Origin: an uncultured Lachnospiraceae bacterium
GTDB taxonomy: Bacteria > Bacillota > Clostridia > Lachnospirales > Lachnospiraceae
Direction: 5' to 3'
Assembly: GCA_934376945.1 (NCBI GenBank)
Contig: CAKRPI010000038.1
Coordinates: 1 to 19,207 of the forward strand
Length of the DNA stretch: 19,207 nucleotides
Every line of letters starts with the position of its first letter. Position 1 is the first letter of the stretch. Below, in pieces: positions 1,450-19,207 of this stretch. Made by a program: the position numbers and the translations under genes. The notes under the pieces were generated by a model. The model was given only the letters and a program-made list of their open reading frames with translations, searched no databases and was not told the origin of the DNA.

Positions 1450-2892
1450 TCAATCTGTTCTGTCCGTATACGCTTTCAGGCAGACGTTGCTGCCGTATCT
1501 TTTCTCCGTGTGTTCCCAGCTTATCCCGTCATGACTGATAAACCCATATTTTCCTTCCGTTGTAACATTTTGCGTATCGCTGCCTGTTTTATATTCCACC
1601 GCCACCGGATTTTTTACCTCCGGCACTTTGACGTGTACCAGGACTGCAAAATATTCTCCTTCATCCAGCAAAACTGCTTCCGGCAGTTCCACAGTATAAA
1701 ATCCTGCCCACTGGAATGTACCGCTTTTTAAAAGGCTGCGTTTTGAAAAATCTGCCGTATCTGCAGGCGACTGCACAAGATACAATTCATATGAAGTATT
1801 CTCTCCGACTGCGTAAAAGCCTGCCGCCAAAAGCTGTTCTTTCCCATCTGCACAGTATACATTTGCAAACCAGCATTCCCCGTCATCATACCCCTGTCTT
1901 CCCTGCCAGCCACAATCATCCGTCTGATAAATCACATCATAATTATCCGCCGGTTCAATTTTTGTATATGCCATTGCCGTTCCGGCAATATTTGCATCTG
2001 CATATGAAACATAAAAAATTCCCTGATCGCCGAATTCTTCTCCCCAGCTGTTCTGACAGATAAATGCGCCGTCCATATCCGGTATTTCAGAAAATGAAAA
2101 TCTGGAGAAACTGTCATCCCAGCCAAGAATCAGAATCTCATGATTCTGCGTTTCTTTCTTCGAATCATAATAAGCCGAGGTCACTTCATTATAATATCCT
2201 GCCTCCGGCAAAACGGTCTCACGGCTCATATATAAAGATGTCTGCACTGCTCCGTATTTCTGCACTGCCGCTTTGATCTCCTGCCTGTCAGCCCCATCCA
2301 GAAGCTGAATTTCCTGCACATGCACTGCGGGTAACAGCCCATCCGGCGACTCCCCGTCACCATAAGGATCCTCCGCTTCCGTCACAGGTCCCTGCCAGCC
2401 GCTTAAATACGCCATCGTCATCCTTGCATCTCCGCCTGCATTGACCGGCACCGTGAATGCATTGTGCAGCGCCAGATGATCTGCCGAAAAAACAATCCGT
2501 TCCTTCGGCAGCAGCGCACTTTCCAACGCGGATGTCGCCGCCAGTGCCCAGCAGGTTCCATAGCTTCCCTGGCTTTTTACGGTCGGTTTCCGGTCATACC
2601 AAACGGAGCTGTACCTAGTCGGAAGCATTTCCGGAAAAACCGGTAATTTCAGCTCCGGAAAAGTCTGCCCAACCCCTGCCAAAGACGCAGCATCCGGCAA
2701 GCCGGGCAATGCCAGATCCAAAAAATCCTGCTCCGACTCTGATGCAAAAACCACATCTGACACGGCCGCCCATGAGCAAACAGCTGCAGTATTCATACTG
2801 TATACGATTCCGATCACAGCTGCCGCACACCAGCTGACACCTGGCCATCTCTTTTTATTTTCCGCGTTTTTCAACCACATTCCCCGCTTCAC
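1450..2892 (-). CDS. Secreted papain-like (C1) peptidase with lectin-like domain
   Basis: About 480 residues. A basic N-terminus and hydrophobic stretch (about 21-45) act as an export signal. The papain fold covers about 95-300 with its full catalytic set: Q108 in KSQGSYGTCWA, nucleophile C114, H251 in NHEILILGWDD and N281 in QNSWGEEFGDQGIFYVSY. The roughly 180 residues after it resemble the lectin-like domain that often follows C1 domains in Clostridia (fold inferred). No cell-wall anchor or obvious lipobox is seen, so the enzyme is probably released or loosely attached. There is no recognisable inhibitory propeptide, only about 45 residues between signal and catalytic domain. The start is uncertain: this GTG or an in-frame ATG at 2880, neither with a good ribosome binding site. 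It overlaps the preceding methyltransferase gene by 26-38 bases, which suggests coupled translation. Substrate unknown. Confidence 0.85.
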   Translation of the reverse strand: MKRGMWLKNAENKKRWPGVSWCAAAVIGIVYSMNTAAVCSWAAVSDVVFASESEQDFLDLALPGLPDAASLAGVGQTFPELKLPVFPEMLPTRYSSVWYDRKPTVKSQGSYGTCWALAATSALESALLPKERIVFSADHLALHNAFTVPVNAGGDARMTMAYLSGWQGPVTEAEDPYGDGESPDGLLPAVHVQEIQLLDGADRQEIKAAVQKYGAVQTSLYMSRETVLPEAGYYNEVTSAYYDSKKETQNHEILILGWDDSFSRFSFSEIPDMDGAFICQNSWGEEFGDQGIFYVSYADANIAGTAMAYTKIEPADNYDVIYQTDDCGWQGRQGYDDGECWFANVYCADGKEQLLAAGFYAVGENTSYELYLVQSPADTADFSKRSLLKSGTFQWAGFYTVELPEAVLLDEGEYFAVLVHVKVPEVKNPVAVEYKTGSDTQNVTTEGKYGFISHDGISWEHTEKRYGSNVCLKAYTDRTD

Positions 2893-4033
2893 GTCTTGGC
2901 GGCCGCGGTCCGATAAACTGATAATAATATGTTTTTATCATACCGTTATAAATTTTTCGGTTCTTATCCGCTTTGCGACCGATATATTTTTCTGCATCTT
3001 CATAGGAAGTAATCACATACTCCGACCAGCTGTCCAGCCTTGAAAATGCATAACCGATCTCGGTATACAGCGCCGGAAGATTCGCCCGATCCTCGATTCG
3101 TTCCCCGTATGGCGGATTCGTGATCACAAATCCATACTTCTTCGGGTGACTCAGCTCACTGACGCTGCGTTTCTGAAAATGGATCAGATGATCAACACCT
3201 GCCAGCCTTGCATTTTCTCTCGCTGCTTTTATCACTTCTCCGTCTATGTCATACCCCTGGATATCCGTCTCGATCTTGTCATCAATCAGATCCTGTGCTT
3301 CCTCCACCGCATGATACCAGTGTTTGCGCGGCACAAGATTTTTCCAGTTTTCAGCAAGAAAGCTGCGGTTCATGCCAGGTGCAATATTGGCCGCCATCAT
3401 TGCCGCTTCAATCGGAAAAGTACCACTGCCGCAAAACGGGTCGACCAGAATCCGATCTGCCTTCCATGGCGTCAGCATAATCAGTGCCGAAGCCAAAGTC
3501 TCCGAAATCGGAGCCTTGGCTGTCAGCTTACGATAGCCACGTTTATGCAGCGACTCACCCGTCGTATCCAGCCCGATCACCGCCTCATCCTTCATCATAA
3601 AAATCCGGATCGGATAGCTTGCCCCATCTTCTTTAAACCACTCAATTCCATAAATACCCTTCAGCCGTTCCACAATTGCTTTTTTTACAATTGACTGAAT
3701 ATCCGACGGACTGAACAGTTTACTTTTTACGGATGTTGCCTTCGTTACCCAGAATTTTGCATCAACCGGCAGATATGCTTCCCACGGCAACGCCTTCACA
3801 CGATCAAACAGCTCTTCAAATGTCGTTGCATGCACCGCGCCAACCTTCAACAGAATCCGCTCCGCACTGCGCAGAAAAATATTCGCTACCGCAATCGCTT
3901 CTGCATCTCCCAGAAACGTCACCCTGCCATCCTCTACGCTGCTGATCTCATATCCAAGATCCAGAATTTCTCTTTTCAGCACCGCCTCCAGTCCGAAATG
4001 GCACGGCGCCATCAGTTCATATAATTCTCTCAT
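2855..4033 (-). CDS. THUMP-domain 23S rRNA (guanine-N2) methyltransferase, RlmL/YpsC type
   Basis: A 392-residue cytoplasmic SAM-dependent RNA methyltransferase. The N-terminal part (about 45-155) matches a THUMP RNA-binding domain. A linker with LHKRGYR (162-168) leads to a Rossmann methyltransferase domain with the SAM motif DPFCGSGTFPIEAA (198-211) and the catalytic NPPYGER (306-312), typical of base-amino N2-guanine methylation. The family includes B. subtilis YpsC and the N-terminal half of E. coli RlmL, which modifies 23S rRNA; the exact target guanosine here is inferred. The start has GAGGAG nine bases upstream and lies six bases after the yfcE stop, in the same operon. The C-terminal tail is Arg/Pro rich (GPRPPRREAG) and its coding sequence overlaps the next gene. 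Confidence 0.92.
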   Translation of the reverse strand: MRELYELMAPCHFGLEAVLKREILDLGYEISSVEDGRVTFLGDAEAIAVANIFLRSAERILLKVGAVHATTFEELFDRVKALPWEAYLPVDAKFWVTKATSVKSKLFSPSDIQSIVKKAIVERLKGIYGIEWFKEDGASYPIRIFMMKDEAVIGLDTTGESLHKRGYRKLTAKAPISETLASALIMLTPWKADRILVDPFCGSGTFPIEAAMMAANIAPGMNRSFLAENWKNLVPRKHWYHAVEEAQDLIDDKIETDIQGYDIDGEVIKAARENARLAGVDHLIHFQKRSVSELSHPKKYGFVITNPPYGERIEDRANLPALYTEIGYAFSRLDSWSEYVITSYEDAEKYIGRKADKNRKIYNGMIKTYYYQFIGPRPPRREAGNVVEKRGK

Positions 4034-4039
4034 GCACTA

Positions 4040-4597
4040 CTACTCCTCATTTGAATGAAGCTTTGTTTCCTTTACGACCGTACCGTCAAATGTGAGAATC
4101 CGGAACACGCCATCCTCCAGCACTGCATAAGTCGGCGGATTTCCCTCCTTCGGAATAGAGACAGAACCTGGATTTAAAATCAGAATTCCATCCTTGCGTT
4201 CTGCCCGCAGGACATGTGTATGACCATGTAAAAGAACATCTCCTTTTTTTAACGGAGGAAGATTCTTTTCATTATAAACATGGCCATGCGTTGCATAAAT
4301 TGCACAGGTACCATCAAACAGAAGCATATAGTCGGCAAGCACCGGAAATTCCAGTACCATCTGATCCACCTCTGCCTCACAGTTTCCGCGCACCGCATAA
4401 ATTTCATCTTTGTGCTCATTTAGCATTTTGATCACTTCCTTTGGAGCATACTCCTTTGGCAGATCATTGCGCGGCCCATGATACAGAATATCTCCAAGCA
4501 GTACCATTCTCTGCGCATTTTCTTTTTCATACGCCTCAAGCAGCTTTCTGCAATAAAACGCAGAACCGTGTATATCAGATGCTATTAACAGCTTCAT
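4040..4597 (-). CDS. yfcE: YfcE-family phosphodiesterase
   Basis: A 185-residue metallophosphoesterase, nearly the length of E. coli YfcE (184). Metal-binding motifs: SDIHGS (D8, H10), LLGDILYHGPRN (D36, with the PRN typical of YfcE), RGNCE (N72), THGH (H104) and HGHTH (H126, H128), then LNPGS. YfcE hydrolyses phosphodiesters such as bis-p-nitrophenyl phosphate in vitro with manganese; its cellular substrate is unsettled. I chose the ATG at 4597 because AGGAGG lies six bases upstream; an ATG seven codons earlier would include that ribosome binding site. It is the first gene of the operon, followed after six bases by the rRNA methyltransferase. Confidence 0.9.
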   Translation of the reverse strand: MKLLIASDIHGSAFYCRKLLEAYEKENAQRMVLLGDILYHGPRNDLPKEYAPKEVIKMLNEHKDEIYAVRGNCEAEVDQMVLEFPVLADYMLLFDGTCAIYATHGHVYNEKNLPPLKKGDVLLHGHTHVLRAERKDGILILNPGSVSIPKEGNPPTYAVLEDGVFRILTFDGTVVKETKLHSNEE

Positions 4598-4668
4598 CCT
4601 TTTCCTCCTTTTATTCAAATGAACTTCTTTTTTCCCTTTTCGTTTTTTCGAAAATTGGTTTATTCTTT

Positions 4669-4886: not shown

Positions 4887-5207
4887 TTATCTGCGTTCTT
4901 GCGGCCAACGCCCCGTCACAATATTTATGCCCCGGTACGCTCGATAACCGCCCACCACGCTCTTTACCTGATAGCCTTTGTAAGCCAGCCTGCGCGCCGC
5001 TTCCAGACTAAGTCCTCCCCGATCACAGTACAAAATCAGCAATCGATCCTTCCCCGGACGCAGCAGTCCTAATTCCTGCGGCAGCACATGCAATGCCCCT
5101 TCGATATGCCCGGCTTCATATTCTTCCGCTATCCTCAAATCTACGATCAGCGCATGTGGATCACGGACATACTGATCTATCTCCTTTGCAGGAATCGTCT
5201 CCAGCAT
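4887..5207 (-). CDS. Rhodanese-like domain protein
   Basis: A 106-residue single-domain rhodanese, probably cytoplasmic. IVDLRIAEEYEAGHIEGALHV is the conserved first motif, and the active-site loop is CDRGGLS with cysteine 61 as the sulfur-accepting residue, followed by ARRLAYKGY and VVGGYRAY, the usual end of the fold. Such proteins carry persulfide sulfur for thiosulfate, tRNA-thiolation or detoxification reactions; the specific role cannot be read from the sequence. The ATG at 5207 has GAGGAGG nine bases upstream; ATGs at 5216 and 5231 are possible but poorly placed. No partner gene is adjacent: the small protein gene lies 219 bases upstream and the yfcE operon promoter lies 190 bases downstream. 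Confidence 0.88.
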   Translation of the reverse strand: MLETIPAKEIDQYVRDPHALIVDLRIAEEYEAGHIEGALHVLPQELGLLRPGKDRLLILYCDRGGLSLEAARRLAYKGYQVKSVVGGYRAYRGINIVTGRWPQERR

Positions 5208-5336
5208 GATCGCCATCCTCCTCTGCCGCATACCTTTACTGTATCATATGTTCATCCGTGAAAATTGCTCCCGTCGTTTTCCCGCCTCCAATATAATAAC
5301 AATCGTACGTTCAGATCCTTTTTCGTGCCAAACGAA

Positions 5337-5426: not shown

Positions 5427-5618
5427 CTATTCGTCTCGTTCACTTCTGTATGAATTATGGCAGTCATGCGTATTTTCGGACTGTTCATTTCTCGCATTTT
5501 TCATTTTTGTATTTTCCGCATTTTTCGATACAGTTCTGTTTTCGTACTGCATTCCGGAAACATCTTCTCTCTTTGACTTTACACCTGATGTCTTTGAAGT
5601 AGTCGTATTTTTTGCCAT
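5427..5618 (-). CDS. Small hydrophilic, probably disordered protein
   Basis: A 63-residue protein made almost entirely of polar and charged residues (Asn, Lys, Ser, Thr, Arg, Glu), with a single cysteine near the end and no hydrophobic core, signal peptide or membrane segment. The ATG at 5618 (MAKNTTTSKTSG) has AGGAGG eight bases upstream, which makes this a convincing gene despite its size; an ATG six codons earlier would include the binding site. I do not recognise a named family. Similar short Asn/Lys/Ser/Thr-rich proteins starting MAKN are common in spore-forming Clostridia, and a possible sporulation promoter lies upstream, so a spore-related role is conceivable but unproven. Confidence 0.6.
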   Translation of the reverse strand: MAKNTTTSKTSGVKSKREDVSGMQYENRTVSKNAENTKMKNARNEQSENTHDCHNSYRSERDE

Positions 5619-5707
5619 TTTTACAGCCTCCTGCATATTATTGCGCCGCCACTTTGGCAGTCCTGCAGATGCCGGAAATCCTGCATTTCAACGGCTTCTG
5701 CATTCTC

Positions 5708-5736
5708 TAGTATGCCGATAAAATTGTAAAATATGT
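5708..5736 (-). promoter_or_regulatory. Possible forespore (sigma-F/G type) promoter
   Basis: On the minus strand ACATA (5736-5732), a 17-base spacer and CATACTA (5714-5708) approximate the forespore sigma pattern (GMATR, 17-18 bases, CATWHTA): full match at -10, four of five at -35. It lies about 80 bases before the small disordered protein and no sigma-A promoter is evident there. Short motifs like this occur by chance. Confidence 0.35.
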
Positions 5737-5737
5737 A

Positions 5738-5766
5738 TTGCAATTTTCTGGAAACTGTATTATAAT
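5738..5766 (+). promoter_or_regulatory. Plus-strand sigma-A promoter for the small RNA candidate
   Basis: TTGCAA (5738-5743), a 17-base spacer and perfect TATAAT (5761-5766). The start point would be near 5773. No open reading frame with a ribosome binding site follows on the plus strand before the terminator at 6025-6061. Confidence 0.65.
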
Positions 5767-5802
5767 TTGTTTTGTAAAAAAACTTACCCTTCAAAACATT
5801 TT

Positions 5803-5832
5803 TTTACAAACCCCTTATTAATTATTTATACT
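5803..5832 (+). promoter_or_regulatory. Second possible plus-strand promoter
   Basis: TTTACA (5803-5808), 18 bases and TATACT (5827-5832), which would start transcription near 5839, just before the GC-rich hairpin. It overlaps the 3' arm of the AT-rich hairpin of 5771-5810, so one of the two promoters may be the real one. Confidence 0.4.
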
Positions 5833-6021
5833 CCCCTCGAAGCGGTCGGCAGCTCCCCTGTCGGCCGTTTCATTTTGCAGTCAACTGACCACTTACCGGA
5901 CGCCACCAAAAAAGTTCCTTGCAGAACTAAGATTCTTCTCGAGTAAGGCAGCACAGGTATCGCACTTGGCTGGATGCGCTGTATCCCAAGACAGCTTAGA
6001 ACACTTCCTTTACTTTTACAG

Positions 6022-6061
6022 AAAAAGACAGCCGTTTCACACTTCTGGCTGTCTTTTTTTT
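6022..6061. terminator. Bidirectional terminator: small RNA (+) and galactoside operon (-)
   Basis: AAGACAGCC (6025-6033) pairs with GGCTGTCTT (6047-6055). Eight Ts follow on the plus strand and five on the minus strand, so it can end both the plus-strand RNA and the operon whose last stop codon is at 6071. Confidence 0.8.
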
Positions 6062-6070
6062 GCCCTGTTC

Positions 6071-8656
6071 TTATTTCACTCCACTTTTATACCGTTTCAT
6101 TGTGATGCGCTCCACCTTTGCATCCTTTCCAATGGCCTGACACCATATTTTCACCGGAGCGTCCTGCAGCCACTCGCCAAGTACCAGCGCCGTATCAACC
6201 GTACCGCCGCCGACCATCGGCGTGTCCTTCTCCGAAAAATAAATTCTTCCCATCACATGATCTCCCGAAAAAACGGTAAGCTTCACATTTTTTCCGATAA
6301 AAAACAGTTTCAGATCCTCACCAGGCGCTGCCTCTGCTTTTACTTCCAGCATTTTATTTTCGCCCTCTGAAAGCAACAATGGAAGGCGTGCTCCTGCCTT
6401 CTCCTCCTGCACCGGAAGAACTTCTCCATATAAACATTCCCGTACTTTCTTTCCTGCAAAAAGCGTAACGCTTCCCATCTCATCTGTATAATACCGTCTG
6501 TAAACGTACAGCGTAAGTTCCAGATCACCTTGTCCGGCCCAAGCGGACAGATCCACATACGGATCATCCTTTACTACGCTTGCAACCTTCTCGTTGTTGA
6601 CATACACCGTGACCATACACTCCGCCTTGCCAAAATGAAGAAACAGACCATCCTCGTCCTTTGGCGAACAGATCGTGCGGTTAATCAGCGTTATCAATGG
6701 CGATGCTGCGCGATTGTAACCATCTGCGTTCATAATAGCATTGTACGGTGAATGACGAAAATAGCAGGTTTGCTTTGCCATTTCATCCACCTCATATCCT
6801 CTCCAGTCATTTGTCAGATCCTCGGTGCGTGTAACCTGCAGAAGCGTTTCCATTCCCTTTAAAGATCCCATTCGAAGGCTTTTCACACGGATGTCATCAA
6901 AGTTTGCATGTCCCCATATTTCCGTCATGACGCGAAGCGATCCTGCCTCAAAAGCCCGCACTGCCGTGCTGCCATTTGCATAAAAAACTTCTGTTTTTTC
7001 ATCCTGACTTATCGTGACAATGTCCGCAAGACCAGACAATAGATAGCTCCCCTTTTTCGGAAGCTCTGTCTCATACCGGCCAATCCCGCGGTACTGGCCC
7101 AAATACTCCATCGGCGTAATCTTGCCCTGTTTCTTCTTTTCCGTCTCCAGCTCACAATTATAAATGGCAGTCCGCACACCGGATACCATCTCCTCCTGCT
7201 CTCCCGGCAGCACAGCAAGCGGCGGCAAAAACGGCAGACCATGCTCCGCAACGTAATCATAACGACCAAAACAAAACATCAGGCGGCCCTTCTGCACTCT
7301 GCGTCCATTCTCCGGCTCTCCGATACAGATCGTATCGCTCACCCCGTTTTCCTCTACTGCAAGAACCGCATTGCCATTTCCGTAAAGCCATACAACCGTG
7401 CGGCCATCCTCTTCCAGAACAGAAGCCAGCTCATAATTCGAAAAGCGGATCTTTACCGACTCCGTAATCTCCACATTCACAGGCAGCAGCTTCGTCTCAC
7501 AGCAATCCATGCAGATTTCATACGTCTCATCACCAAGCAAAAGTCCAACTGTCTGCTTTTCTCCGAGATTTGATACATCCAGCAGACTGCCCCGGTCAGT
7601 CTTCAGCTCCGGCACAACTTCATTGACACGTACTCCCGAAATCACAGCACTGCTTTTCTCCGGTTTTCCGGCTCCGAGCGCCGGACCAAATGTATGCAGC
7701 AAACCCGCAAACAATCTTGCCTTTAATATTGCCTCATCATAATTTCCGGCAGAACCGATCATAGACTTAAAATCATAATCCGTTGCCATGATTGCTACCG
7801 GCGCATCCTTTGGCCCCCAATTCGTAATTCCGGTATAAAAATCCATCGTTGTTCCTGACGTCTGATTGTATGGACCAAGCAGCTTTGCTCCGCAGGCAAG
7901 AAGCCGTTTCAGAAAATCATACTCTCTGTTTGTCTCCGTAATCATAAAAGGCATTCTGCGAAGCGCCGCCGCTTCATTTAAATGCAGGGCTCTCTGCTCC
8001 AACCCTTTAAAATCGCCCGACGAATAAACATTAAACGCAGAATAAAGTCCTTCCGTCAATCCTCCGCTTTTGACGATATCATCCTGTCCACAGCAGTAAA
8101 ATAAGGGAATCTCCATCCCGAAAGACTCCGCCATCTTTTTAAGTTTTTCCATATACGTAACCGGGCTTTTGCAGTTATAAAAGTCCAGCTCATTCTCAAT
8201 CTGCATACAGATAATACTTCCCTGTTTTGTGATCTGATACCGATCAAGAATCGGCAGAATATGAGAATACCAGGTATACATTGCATCCAAAAAAGCCGGA
8301 TCATCCTGCCTTACCGGAATTCCCTCCGCATAAAGCCAGGCCGGAATCGCACCTCCATCCCATTCTGAGCAGATATATGGTCCCGGTCTTGCAACCACAA
8401 ACAGTTCATTTTCTTTTGCAAGCCTCAGAAAACGTTCCACATCGCGGTTCTTCTCAAAATTCCATTCTCCCGGTGCCATCTCATGGTAATTCCACGGAAA
8501 ATAAACATCAATCGCATTATAGCCCGCTGCCTTTAAAAGTTTCATCCTCTGCTCCCAGCGTTCCTGAGGAATCCGAAAATAAAATAAGGAAGATGCCAGA
8601 ATCACCCGACAGCTCCCATCGATCCAGATTCCATTTTCATTCAATTCAATCTTCAT
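6071..8656 (-). CDS. Beta-galactosidase, glycoside hydrolase family 35
   Basis: An 861-residue enzyme of the GH35 type. The N-terminal TIM barrel (about 10-330) shows family landmarks: AAGYNAIDVYFPWNYHE, FVVARPGPYICSEWDGGAIPAWL, the acid/base glutamate E156 in MQIENE and the likely nucleophile E241 in MITETNREYDF. The following ~500 residues form the beta-rich accessory domains usual for large GH35 enzymes. There is no signal peptide, so it should act in the cytoplasm on galactosides brought in by the neighbouring transporter, releasing terminal beta-galactose; the exact linkage is not deducible. I chose the ATG at 8656 with GGGAGAGG just upstream over the ATG at 8671. It is the last gene of the operon, separated from the binding-protein gene by a stretch with two strong hairpins and ended by the terminator at 6022-6061. 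Confidence 0.92.
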   Translation of the reverse strand: MKIELNENGIWIDGSCRVILASSLFYFRIPQERWEQRMKLLKAAGYNAIDVYFPWNYHEMAPGEWNFEKNRDVERFLRLAKENELFVVARPGPYICSEWDGGAIPAWLYAEGIPVRQDDPAFLDAMYTWYSHILPILDRYQITKQGSIICMQIENELDFYNCKSPVTYMEKLKKMAESFGMEIPLFYCCGQDDIVKSGGLTEGLYSAFNVYSSGDFKGLEQRALHLNEAAALRRMPFMITETNREYDFLKRLLACGAKLLGPYNQTSGTTMDFYTGITNWGPKDAPVAIMATDYDFKSMIGSAGNYDEAILKARLFAGLLHTFGPALGAGKPEKSSAVISGVRVNEVVPELKTDRGSLLDVSNLGEKQTVGLLLGDETYEICMDCCETKLLPVNVEITESVKIRFSNYELASVLEEDGRTVVWLYGNGNAVLAVEENGVSDTICIGEPENGRRVQKGRLMFCFGRYDYVAEHGLPFLPPLAVLPGEQEEMVSGVRTAIYNCELETEKKKQGKITPMEYLGQYRGIGRYETELPKKGSYLLSGLADIVTISQDEKTEVFYANGSTAVRAFEAGSLRVMTEIWGHANFDDIRVKSLRMGSLKGMETLLQVTRTEDLTNDWRGYEVDEMAKQTCYFRHSPYNAIMNADGYNRAASPLITLINRTICSPKDEDGLFLHFGKAECMVTVYVNNEKVASVVKDDPYVDLSAWAGQGDLELTLYVYRRYYTDEMGSVTLFAGKKVRECLYGEVLPVQEEKAGARLPLLLSEGENKMLEVKAEAAPGEDLKLFFIGKNVKLTVFSGDHVMGRIYFSEKDTPMVGGGTVDTALVLGEWLQDAPVKIWCQAIGKDAKVERITMKRYKSGVK

Positions 8657-8705
8657 ACGTACCTCTCCCATCTTTCACGTATCAATCCGTCTGCTTTCAC
8701 TGATT

Positions 8706-17842: not shown

Positions 17843-17926
17843 TGCGGAGAATGGGACTTGAACCCACACGATGTTGCCACCACAGGCACCTGAAGCCTGC
17901 GCGTCTGCCTATTCCGCCATCTCCGC
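17843..17926 (-). tRNA. tRNA-Leu (anticodon CAG)
   Basis: 84 bases on the minus strand. The acceptor stem GCGGAGA pairs with TCTCCGC, followed by discriminator A; CCA is not encoded. The anticodon arm CAGGC-TTCAGGT-GCCTG gives anticodon CAG, which decodes CUG. A long variable arm and the GGGTTCAAGTCCC T-arm confirm a class II leucine tRNA. It is transcribed away from tRNA-Leu(UAA). Confidence 0.95.
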
Positions 17927-18101: not shown

Positions 18102-18186
18102 GCGGAAGTGTCGGAACTGGCAGACGAGCAAGACTAAGGATCTTGTGAGCATTGCGCTCGTGTGGGTTCAAGTCCCATCTTCCGCA
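18102..18186 (+). tRNA. tRNA-Leu (anticodon UAA)
   Basis: 85 bases. Acceptor GCGGAAG pairs with CTTCCGC, discriminator A, CCA not encoded. The anticodon arm CAAGA-CTAAGGA-TCTTG gives UAA, which decodes UUA/UUG. A long variable arm marks a leucine tRNA. Its 3' end abuts a converging integrase gene, so it is very likely the insertion site of an integrated element and remains complete after insertion. Confidence 0.95.
18161..18186. other. Likely attachment site (tRNA 3' end)
   Basis: The 3' end of tRNA-Leu(UAA), T-arm through discriminator base, is the place where tyrosine integrases of this type usually recombine. The integrase stop codon is 29 bases beyond. The second copy of the core (other attachment end) would lie outside the window, so the exact core cannot be defined here. 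Confidence 0.55.
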
Positions 18187-18195
18187 TAACTGATG

Positions 18196-18238
18196 AAACG
18201 TGGAAAGCTTGATTTTAGGCGAGTTTTCCACGTTTTTT
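18196..18238 (+). terminator. Terminator of tRNA-Leu(UAA), overlapping the integrase 3' end
   Basis: AAACGTGGAAA (18196-18206) pairs with TTTCCACGTTT (18225-18235), eleven pairs, followed by six Ts on the plus strand. The 3' arm lies inside the last codons of the integrase gene on the other strand. Confidence 0.75.
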
Positions 18239-19207
18239 CTTTTGCGAAAAACTGACCACTTTGGTATAACACGGTATAACACTTTCTTCTGATGGTTCAT
18301 TTTCCTTATCTGCGCTCAAGGCAGACAGAACTTTATTATAGGTTTGTTCATCTGTAAGTCTGTTGAAACAGTAATTATGGAGAGTGGTTCTTTCATCTGC
18401 GTGTCCTACGATCTTTCTGATCGCTTCCAGAGGCACACCGTTATCGTATAAAGTAGAAATATAAGTCTTGCGAAACTTATGAGCGGTCTTTACTTTCATT
18501 CCCAAACGTTCACATGCATCTATAATACGTCCCTCTATCGCACCATGCTTAATACGTTGTCCATCTGCGGACAGAAAAATAAAGTCCTCATCTTTTCTTC
18601 CGTTGATTCTATTCGCAGCTATGACTTCCTCTAAGATCGCTTGTGCAATCGGAACTAACGGAACATAACGATTACCTACCTCTGTCTTGGTGTGATCTAC
18701 AATAGCATATCCGACCATTCTGCTGTGTTCAGCATCGATGTCCTCAAATACACGTGTTTCCTGTCTCTGAATATGAATCTGATTTTCCTCAATGTCTGAT
18801 TCCCTGAGCGCCACCAGCTCACCAATACGTAGTCCGGTATAGAACATGAAGATGATTGCGAGTGGCGCTGTATATTCTGGTTTTTCTGCATACAGTCTCC
18901 ACATTTCCTCTTCCATCTTCTGCTGTTCTTCTATGGTATATACCTGAGTCTTGCTGTCGGCTTTCTGTACACTACGGAAAAGCTTGGTATTGATCTCAAC
19001 CTCATCAAACGGATTTTCTTTAATGTAACCTTTTTTCTTTGCGTACTTCACGCCTTGGCGTATTATGATAGTCGTATTATAGAATTGTTTTTTCGTCATA
19101 TTATATTTCTTGATGAGAGCATGAAGCCATTTTTCCAGATATACAGCATCCATTTTTCTGATATCCATATTAATAAAGCCTTGATCTACTTTATAATAAG
19201 TACGCCA
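18215..19207 (-). CDS. Tyrosine recombinase/integrase, 5' end outside the window
   Basis: The frame stays open from the stop at 18215 to the right edge (19207), so the first in-window ATG (19168) is probably internal and the gene continues to the right. Counted from that ATG: part of the SAM-like core-binding domain (to about 60), then the catalytic domain with R114 (TGLRIGEL), K161 (HTKTEVGNRYVPL), H230 and R233 (HKFRKT), H256 (VGHAD) and the nucleophile Y266 (HNYCF). All catalytic residues are intact, so the enzyme is likely functional. Such integrases insert phages and conjugative elements at tRNA 3' ends; it converges on tRNA-Leu(UAA). Its last residues (QKKKRGKLA) are encoded by the tRNA terminator sequence. 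Phage or integrative conjugative element cannot be told apart from this end. Confidence 0.92.
   Translation of the reverse strand, partial: WRTYYKVDQGFINMDIRKMDAVYLEKWLHALIKKYNMTKKQFYNTTIIIRQGVKYAKKKGYIKENPFDEVEINTKLFRSVQKADSKTQVYTIEEQQKMEEEMWRLYAEKPEYTAPLAIIFMFYTGLRIGELVALRESDIEENQIHIQRQETRVFEDIDAEHSRMVGYAIVDHTKTEVGNRYVPLVPIAQAILEEVIAANRINGRKDEDFIFLSADGQRIKHGAIEGRIIDACERLGMKVKTAHKFRKTYISTLYDNGVPLEAIRKIVGHADERTTLHNYCFNRLTDEQTYNKVLSALSADKENEPSEESVIPCYTKVVSFSQKKKRGKLA
18263..18282. repeat. Tandem 10-bp direct repeat near the integrase 3' end
   Basis: GGTATAACAC occurs twice without a gap, about 77 bases inside the element from the tRNA end and within the integrase coding sequence. Its position fits an arm-type binding site for the integrase or an excisionase. 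Confidence 0.5.

Follow-up and report, generated by a model that had tools for sequence, protein, structure and literature searches.

The plus strand of the window (the whole 19,207-nt stretch of uncultured Lachnospiraceae DNA analysed here) almost certainly carries a genuine small-RNA (sRNA) gene at positions 5773 to ~5877, a member of a well supported and apparently undescribed family (Table 1). The case is computational, and we infer both the transcription of the gene and its exact ends. The features of a trans-acting sRNA that we found are a promoter and a terminator of its own, predicted to be used as such, the absence of a conserved open reading frame and a conserved unpaired seed. The reading that we regard as the probable one is that of a standalone regulatory RNA with a housekeeping-type promoter and two hairpins, whose linker pairs in trans without Hfq. 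The sequence-only reading had proposed an unannotated structured small RNA at this place, which family-wide conservation, a covarying hairpin and the promoter support, whereas its boundaries, its shorter isoform and its assignment of the distal terminator do not stand. Full-text searches with the core sequence strings returned no papers, and neither this RNA nor any described conserved regulatory sRNA of Lachnospiraceae turned up in the literature searched, a scope that leaves out most subscription journals, bioRxiv and supplements. Lachnospiraceae are abundant human-gut bacteria, and an sRNA with a near-fixed 23-nt core, family synteny, several copies per genome in parts of the order and uptake by phages offers a handle on their post-transcriptional control.

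Table 1. Features of the window around the sRNA gene, and copies of the sRNA on phage contigs
Feature	Position	Strand	Basis or context
rlmL-type rRNA methyltransferase gene	2855..4033	-	below NCBIfam equivalog cut-off; bait for loci
yfcE phosphodiesterase gene	4040..4618	-	gene of the cluster with rhodanese and rlmL
Rhodanese-domain gene	4887..5231	-	member of the neighbouring gene cluster
Sigma-A-type promoter TTGCAA-17-TATAAT	5738..5766	+	fixed position in alignment
Conserved sRNA unit, ~105 nt	5773..5877	+	predicted start 7 nt after the -10 box; predicted end
5' hairpin, AT-only stem, CCCUUC in loop	5773..5808	+	window fold
Invariant single-stranded C-rich linker CCCCUUAUUAAUUAUUUAUACUCCCCUC (28 nt)	5811..5838	+	alignment, core scan, fold
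14-bp hairpin, CUCCC loop, probable terminator; tail ATTTT at 5872-5876	5839..5871	+	fold and covariation
Bidirectional terminator, probably of the GH35 operon; possible back-up for the sRNA	~6019..6061	.	sequence, fold, comparison with L001
GH35 glycosidase gene, converging on the sRNA gene	6071..8671	-	stop at 6071
Phage copy, L382			adjoins holin and endolysin genes
Phage copy, L383			adjoins portal and head genes
Phage copy, L385			near RusA resolvase gene; genes in common with L387 and with L388
Phage copy, L387			genes in common with L385; own match a weak HNH only; tRNA gene directly upstream
Phage copy, L388			close to genes for a DNA polymerase and a helicase; tRNA gene directly upstream

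The comparison set consisted of 80 loci retrieved with the nearby RlmL protein as bait, nearly all of them from Lachnospiraceae or related Clostridia by title. The TTGCAA-17-TATAAT promoter claimed earlier is present in the sequence, and the best-scoring boxes combined a spacer of 17 with a TTGC start in 37 of the 42 sequences compared, the window included. Promoter scores reached at least 9 of 12 in 86 of 105 unique elements, with a mean of 9.1; upstream sequences with shuffled bases still reach 8.4 on average, so the score by itself says little, and the main support for the promoter is its fixed position in the alignment. A dyad, AAAATTG...CAATTTT, at window positions 5720-5747 overlaps the -35 box; by eye its left half is lost in relatives, and it is probably due to chance.

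The helices described earlier are present in the sequence, among them an AT-only stem (5773-5782/5799-5808) and a GC-rich stem of 14 bp. The linker is unpaired in the minimum-energy fold of the 105-nt unit of the window (z -7.2). Across 105 unique elements compared with base-shuffled controls, z was below -2 in all 105, for the 5' segment as well as for the 3' hairpin; the core was on average 89% unpaired, and in 74% of the elements its unpaired share was 90% or more. To call the linker always open would be too strong, since part of it pairs in the predicted folds of three of the six relatives folded singly (L090, L132 and L151, of which the folded stretches of L132 and L151 contain bases upstream of the likely start). 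A MAFFT alignment of 40 sequences, made up of the window and 39 loci with L015 (cut by a contig end) and L021 (for which the script gave only a 5-bp stem) excluded, yielded in RNAalifold a 3' hairpin of 14 pairs with changes on both sides in 14/14. No consensus 5' hairpin was found by RNAalifold in this alignment, and all of its invariant columns fall within the linker. In a second alignment of 100 members (99 distinct, from 100 sources chosen for having matches), which was fitted to the covariance model and hence favours the structure, 98.6% of the cells of the 3' hairpin pair versus 70.2% in shuffles, 394 cells are compensatory, and the covariation score is 0.80 versus at most 0.14 for slid partners; sliding the structure removes almost all of the pairing and compensation. 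The 14-bp hairpin probably ends transcription of the sRNA.

The linker CCCCTTATTAATTATTTATACTCCCCTC (5811-5838) contains an exact 23-mer at 5814-5836, and its AU-rich middle is as invariant as its C-rich ends. The collection of 146 unique copies comprises 107 that the family searches yielded, a further 33 that came with the order search, 1 from a prophage and 5 from phages; random pairs of them share a mean identity of 97% over the 23-nt core versus 37% and 33% over the 30-nt 3' and 5' flanks, respectively, the flank values being computed ungapped and understating similarity where lengths differ. The exact 23-mer is found in 93/107 family, 31/33 order-added, 1/1 prophage and 3/5 phage copies, and the exact 19-mer in 103/107, 32/33, 1/1 and 5/5, respectively. 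When the 80 RlmL loci were scanned for the 28-nt sequence with up to 4 substitutions, the core was present in 41; some of the 39 core-negative loci are truncated contigs or divergent members, with partial or weaker copies in L014, L035, L043, L063 and L076, and a broader model scores L043, L063 and L067.

Two covariance models, R1 (E <= 0.001) and the broader R2, built from the 100-member alignment, served to map the distribution of the family. With R1, 143 of 299 sampled family genomes carry the sRNA, 138 of them with one match, as do 3/291 genomes sampled over the class; R2 found it in 44 of 295 genomes over the order, 13 of which were already in the family sample. A phylum search of 398 genomes with a 22-nt core pattern (up to 2 mismatches) returned two, the centre genome itself and G889 with 2 mismatches; the latter copy was rejected as chance level, given that the reversed control pattern also matches two genomes; its R2 score is 19.3 bits. 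Judged from sampled genome sets, and with stricter filters losing faint matches, the sRNA family seems restricted to Lachnospirales, to which Lachnospiraceae belong. Among the named carriers are Konateibacter massiliensis, Lachnotalea glycerini, Eubacterium ramulus and Mediterraneibacter massiliensis, and [Clostridium] symbiosum gave no sRNA match. Genomes that the order search brought in keep the same linker, while both hairpins are often unrelated, and G651, G706 and G763 carry three copies each. Spo0A was detected in 63 of the 78 genomes with the sRNA versus 41 of the 72 that are sRNA-negative (Fisher p 0.002), and of the 46 sampled genomes with no detectable Spo0A, 15 carry the sRNA; we do not claim a link to sporulation, as incomplete genomes or shared ancestry could explain the association and 15 sRNA-positive genomes lack a detectable Spo0A.

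The earlier failure to place the RNA in a known family was matched by the Rfam covariance models, which give nothing on the element at the gathering score, nor any family on it in the window and its relatives at permissive thresholds; elsewhere in the searched stretches they match tRNAs, a glycine riboswitch, Clostridiales-1 RNA, a T-box below the cut-off and, weakly, microRNAs. The top Rfam bit score on the region belongs to the CiaR-dependent csRNA of streptococci (RF02379), at 21.8 bits (E 1.7) with a gathering cut-off of 57. These RNAs have a hairpin-linker-terminator plan with an unpaired linker complementary to the Shine-Dalgarno (SD) sequence and the start codon (PMC3091779). The sRNA resembles them in its two hairpins, its SD-complementary unpaired linker and a second hairpin that is a probable terminator; its linker, however, has by eye neither CAU (anti-AUG) nor the csRNA nonamer, and hardly varies along its entire length among the genomes sampled. 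CsfG, a forespore sRNA of Bacillaceae, is described as having conserved CU-rich sequence in its loops and also in the segments that separate its helices (PMC3574147) and as being under sigma-F/G control (PMC9147052). The two RNAs share CU-rich conserved unpaired stretches, but the one described here has a housekeeping-type TTGCAA-17-TATAAT rather than a sigma-F/G promoter and occurs also in genomes with no detectable Spo0A; the Rfam scans, which need not include a CsfG model, gave no match on the region. The likeness to 6S RNA suggested earlier dissolves on inspection: both have C-rich unpaired bases, but the sRNA has no long closing stem, folding instead into two hairpins with an open linker, and no 6S RNA is among seven weak Rfam matches (E up to 5).

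On how the sRNA works, we lean slightly toward action through pairing of the linker with mRNAs; pairing with G-rich initiation regions is suggested because the plan resembles that of the streptococcal csRNAs. The housekeeping-type promoter would drive transcription, the two hairpins would hold the 28-nt linker open, with the second stopping transcription, and the C-rich segments CCCCUU and ACUCCCCUC of the linker, along with CCCUUC and CUCCC in the loops, would pair with SD-like G-rich sites in mRNAs. Such pairing would be independent of Hfq, whose profile (PF17209) matched 0/150 family genomes and was positive in 5/14 control genomes including B. subtilis, and would block translation of the target mRNAs. 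Termination at the 14-bp hairpin, the first of two candidate terminators, pairing in trans and the direction of regulation are likewise inferred.

No convincing mRNA target emerged from searches by complement, by seed plus ATG and by duplex energy. In 1.2 Mb of genome G014, with 1,073 initiation regions from our own rough gene calls and 40 linkers with a shuffled AU middle as controls, the linker reached -18 kcal/mol or lower with 26 initiation regions versus a control mean of 40.8, 38 of the 40 controls scoring at least as high. The mean duplex energy was -10.2 for initiation regions, -8.6 for gene interiors and -10.9 for the shuffled-AU controls; the advantage of initiation regions is therefore ordinary SD complementarity, because the controls pair better still. 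When 58 genomes were searched for the seed together with ATG, no gene recurred among the 30 loci inspected, and the complement of 20 core nucleotides (up to 3 mismatches, 60 genomes) found the sRNA itself, a sister RNA in seven genomes and scattered sites. Two candidate targets were rejected: an FtsW-like gene, which looked enriched (the best tenth includes 13 of its 30 orthologues) but whose complementary stretch is, by our own reading of the sequences, the 3' terminus of the preceding gene, with a G-run that varies between genomes, and an alpha/beta hydrolase, the best in G014 (-26.7), with only 7 of 30 loci (G014 included) in the best tenth.

The sister RNA (TTAAATACTTATCCTCCCC, L191-L197) retains a linker, UUAAAUACUUAUCCUCCCC, that is identical to the main linker at 16 of 19 positions and is followed by a hairpin, with a C-rich hairpin loop upstream. 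It is located at about position 1500 in each of these loci, and its linker also occurs in a viral contig (L386:68-86). In most of the seven loci its promoter approximates TGTATAA-N16-CATACTAT, which we take to be sigma-G/F-like. The pattern TTAANTANTTATNCTCCCC matched only the main and sister strings in 120 family genomes (50 genomes; reversed control 0), and the sister RNA, rarer than the main one, was present in five of the 120, all of which also have the main RNA. It has no Rfam match. In one genome a Clostridiales-1 RNA (RF01699, 112.7 bits) lies ~800 nt from the sister RNA, at L193:2331-2483 (+).

The invariance of the AU-rich middle exceeds the needs of SD mimicry, which makes protein binding a serious, if rather doubtful, alternative: the linker would be the site of a conserved RNA-binding protein, and the RNA would act by titrating or guiding this protein rather than through base pairs with mRNAs. 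The middle being as fixed as the C-rich ends, mRNA complementarity that is not enriched over shuffled-AU controls, flanks that differ widely in bacterial and phage copies alike and the retention of UUAAAUACUUAUCCUCCCC by the sister RNA all speak for such a site. Against it, Hfq, the sole protein candidate looked for, was not found, and an unpaired C-rich stretch with a CUCCCC end suits antisense pairing too.

Copies of the RNA also occur on phages. The 376-nt region had no match in phage or plasmid records, and the 32-nt core none in plasmid records; among phage records the core had 40 matches at E up to 5, none over 80% of the query, the best 20 of the 40 being partial (18-25 nt, E 0.9-3). 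In a viral-contig collection, four core patterns picked out 17 loci, and R1 scored at least 39 bits in six of them, five of which are phage contigs (Table 1). The other 11 were rejected, with less than 22 bits and weak folds behind the core (-1.7 to -9.5 kcal/mol), and L384 was rejected as a phage copy, being a host fragment with a rhodanese gene and a 74% DNA match to L027. Because L385 has genes in common with both L387 and L388, the five represent about three separate phage settings. ARAGORN assigns no regular anticodon to the tRNA upstream of the L387 copy, and L406 is likewise listed among the phage or prophage stretches with a core-bearing copy. L383 matches a stretch of genome G651 at 100% identity over 2,811 nt and is most likely a prophage there, judging from this sequence identity; G651 has two further sRNA copies, and with the one beside purH the L383 RNA shares 92% identity over 91 nt. 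The phage copies retain the core and a 3' hairpin, the hairpin sequences differ, and in L382 and L388 the 5' hairpin is little developed or absent.

We put forward tentatively that an RNA regulon independent of Hfq might span the order with the 23-nt core as its recognition element, hairpins being freely replaced by bacteria and phages, and that phage RNAs might plug into the host regulon or compete with it during infection or lysogeny. Selection would then act base by base on the core alone, and phages would carry core RNAs in the settings of lysis genes, of genes for head packaging and, among one set of related phages, downstream of a phage tRNA. The phage copies make mimicry of a host regulon a testable question.

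The position of the gene next to the rhodanese/yfcE/rlmL cluster raises the alternative of a cis-acting leader or attenuator of a neighbour such as this cluster, which we consider very unlikely. In a synteny recount with duplicates merged, 34 distinct elements were tied to the RlmL bait and 63 came from the model search alone. All 34 bait-tied elements lie 5' of the cluster (27 divergent, 7 in the same direction). The retrieved stretch includes a cluster gene for 56 of the 63 bait-free elements, these 56 being the only model-search elements independent of the bait that inform on synteny, and the other 7 have none in reach. A leader would fit the finding that 56/56 sit 5' of the cluster, but 47 of them point away from it and 9 in the same direction; the sRNA gene appears to flip in place yet stays upstream. 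Furthermore, phage copies exist, and 29 of the 40 order-search loci, which have mostly 2-kb flanks, are cut by contig ends in some cases and include several from one genome, show no rhodanese, yfcE or rlmL gene. In multi-copy genomes of the order, copies with hairpins of their own lie beside purH (L407, L410 and L413) or other genes (L405) rather than the rlmL cluster, the gene names at these four loci being read by eye from translations.

The standalone sRNA, as we prefer to read it, is shorter than first described. An extent of ~290 nt, to 6061, had been proposed, but the conserved unit ends at ~5877: blastn of window positions 5637-6115 (E <= 0.01) matched 46 of the 80 loci, and all matches end at or before 5880 with a single exception, a second match at 6071-6115 in L001. 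This closest relative, a Lachnospiraceae metagenome bin with an RlmL 95% identical, has the distal terminator ~30 nt past the sRNA hairpin and lacks the ~135-nt stretch of the window; positions 5878-6016 are not conserved, with no blastn match among the 80 loci. We think it very unlikely that the functional RNA instead spans ~289 nt and reaches 6061, a second promoter giving rise to a shorter form. The whole stretch does fold better than 200/200 shuffles, as the claim of structure throughout would have it, at z -4.7, yet the 105-nt unit alone reaches the far lower value given above. Since the U-tract of the first hairpin (AUUUU) is weak and the hairpin at 5839-5871 is unlisted by the terminator scan, read-through to 6061 is possible. 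The distal hairpin, taken earlier for a perfect terminator of the sRNA, has T-runs on both strands and lies just beyond the minus-strand GH35 stop (6071), and it is therefore better assigned to the convergent glycosidase operon, which, to judge from sequence, it probably terminates. The second promoter (5803-5832) has its -10 box within the invariant linker and its -35 box in a stem arm that is variable among relatives; we treat it as chance, because a start near 5839 would leave the terminator alone.

That the element encodes a conserved small peptide is least probable of all, for although two stop-free frames run through the linker and 37 of 107 unique elements have a start codon and an open frame through the core (22 in one frame only), these spread over all three frames, the other 70 have no start within 75 nt upstream with such a frame, and the invariant core shows no codon pattern, with lengths varying on both sides; the element is not evidently coding. 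Elsewhere in the window, positions 5427-5636 (-) encode a highly charged small protein of 69 aa with no Pfam or NCBIfam match, for which the closest relative has a similar frame (74%; L084, from the same genome as L001). Two tRNA genes, at 17843-17926 (-) and 18102-18186 (+), adjoin a phage-type integrase gene (18215-19168, -), and this region is a possible integration site.
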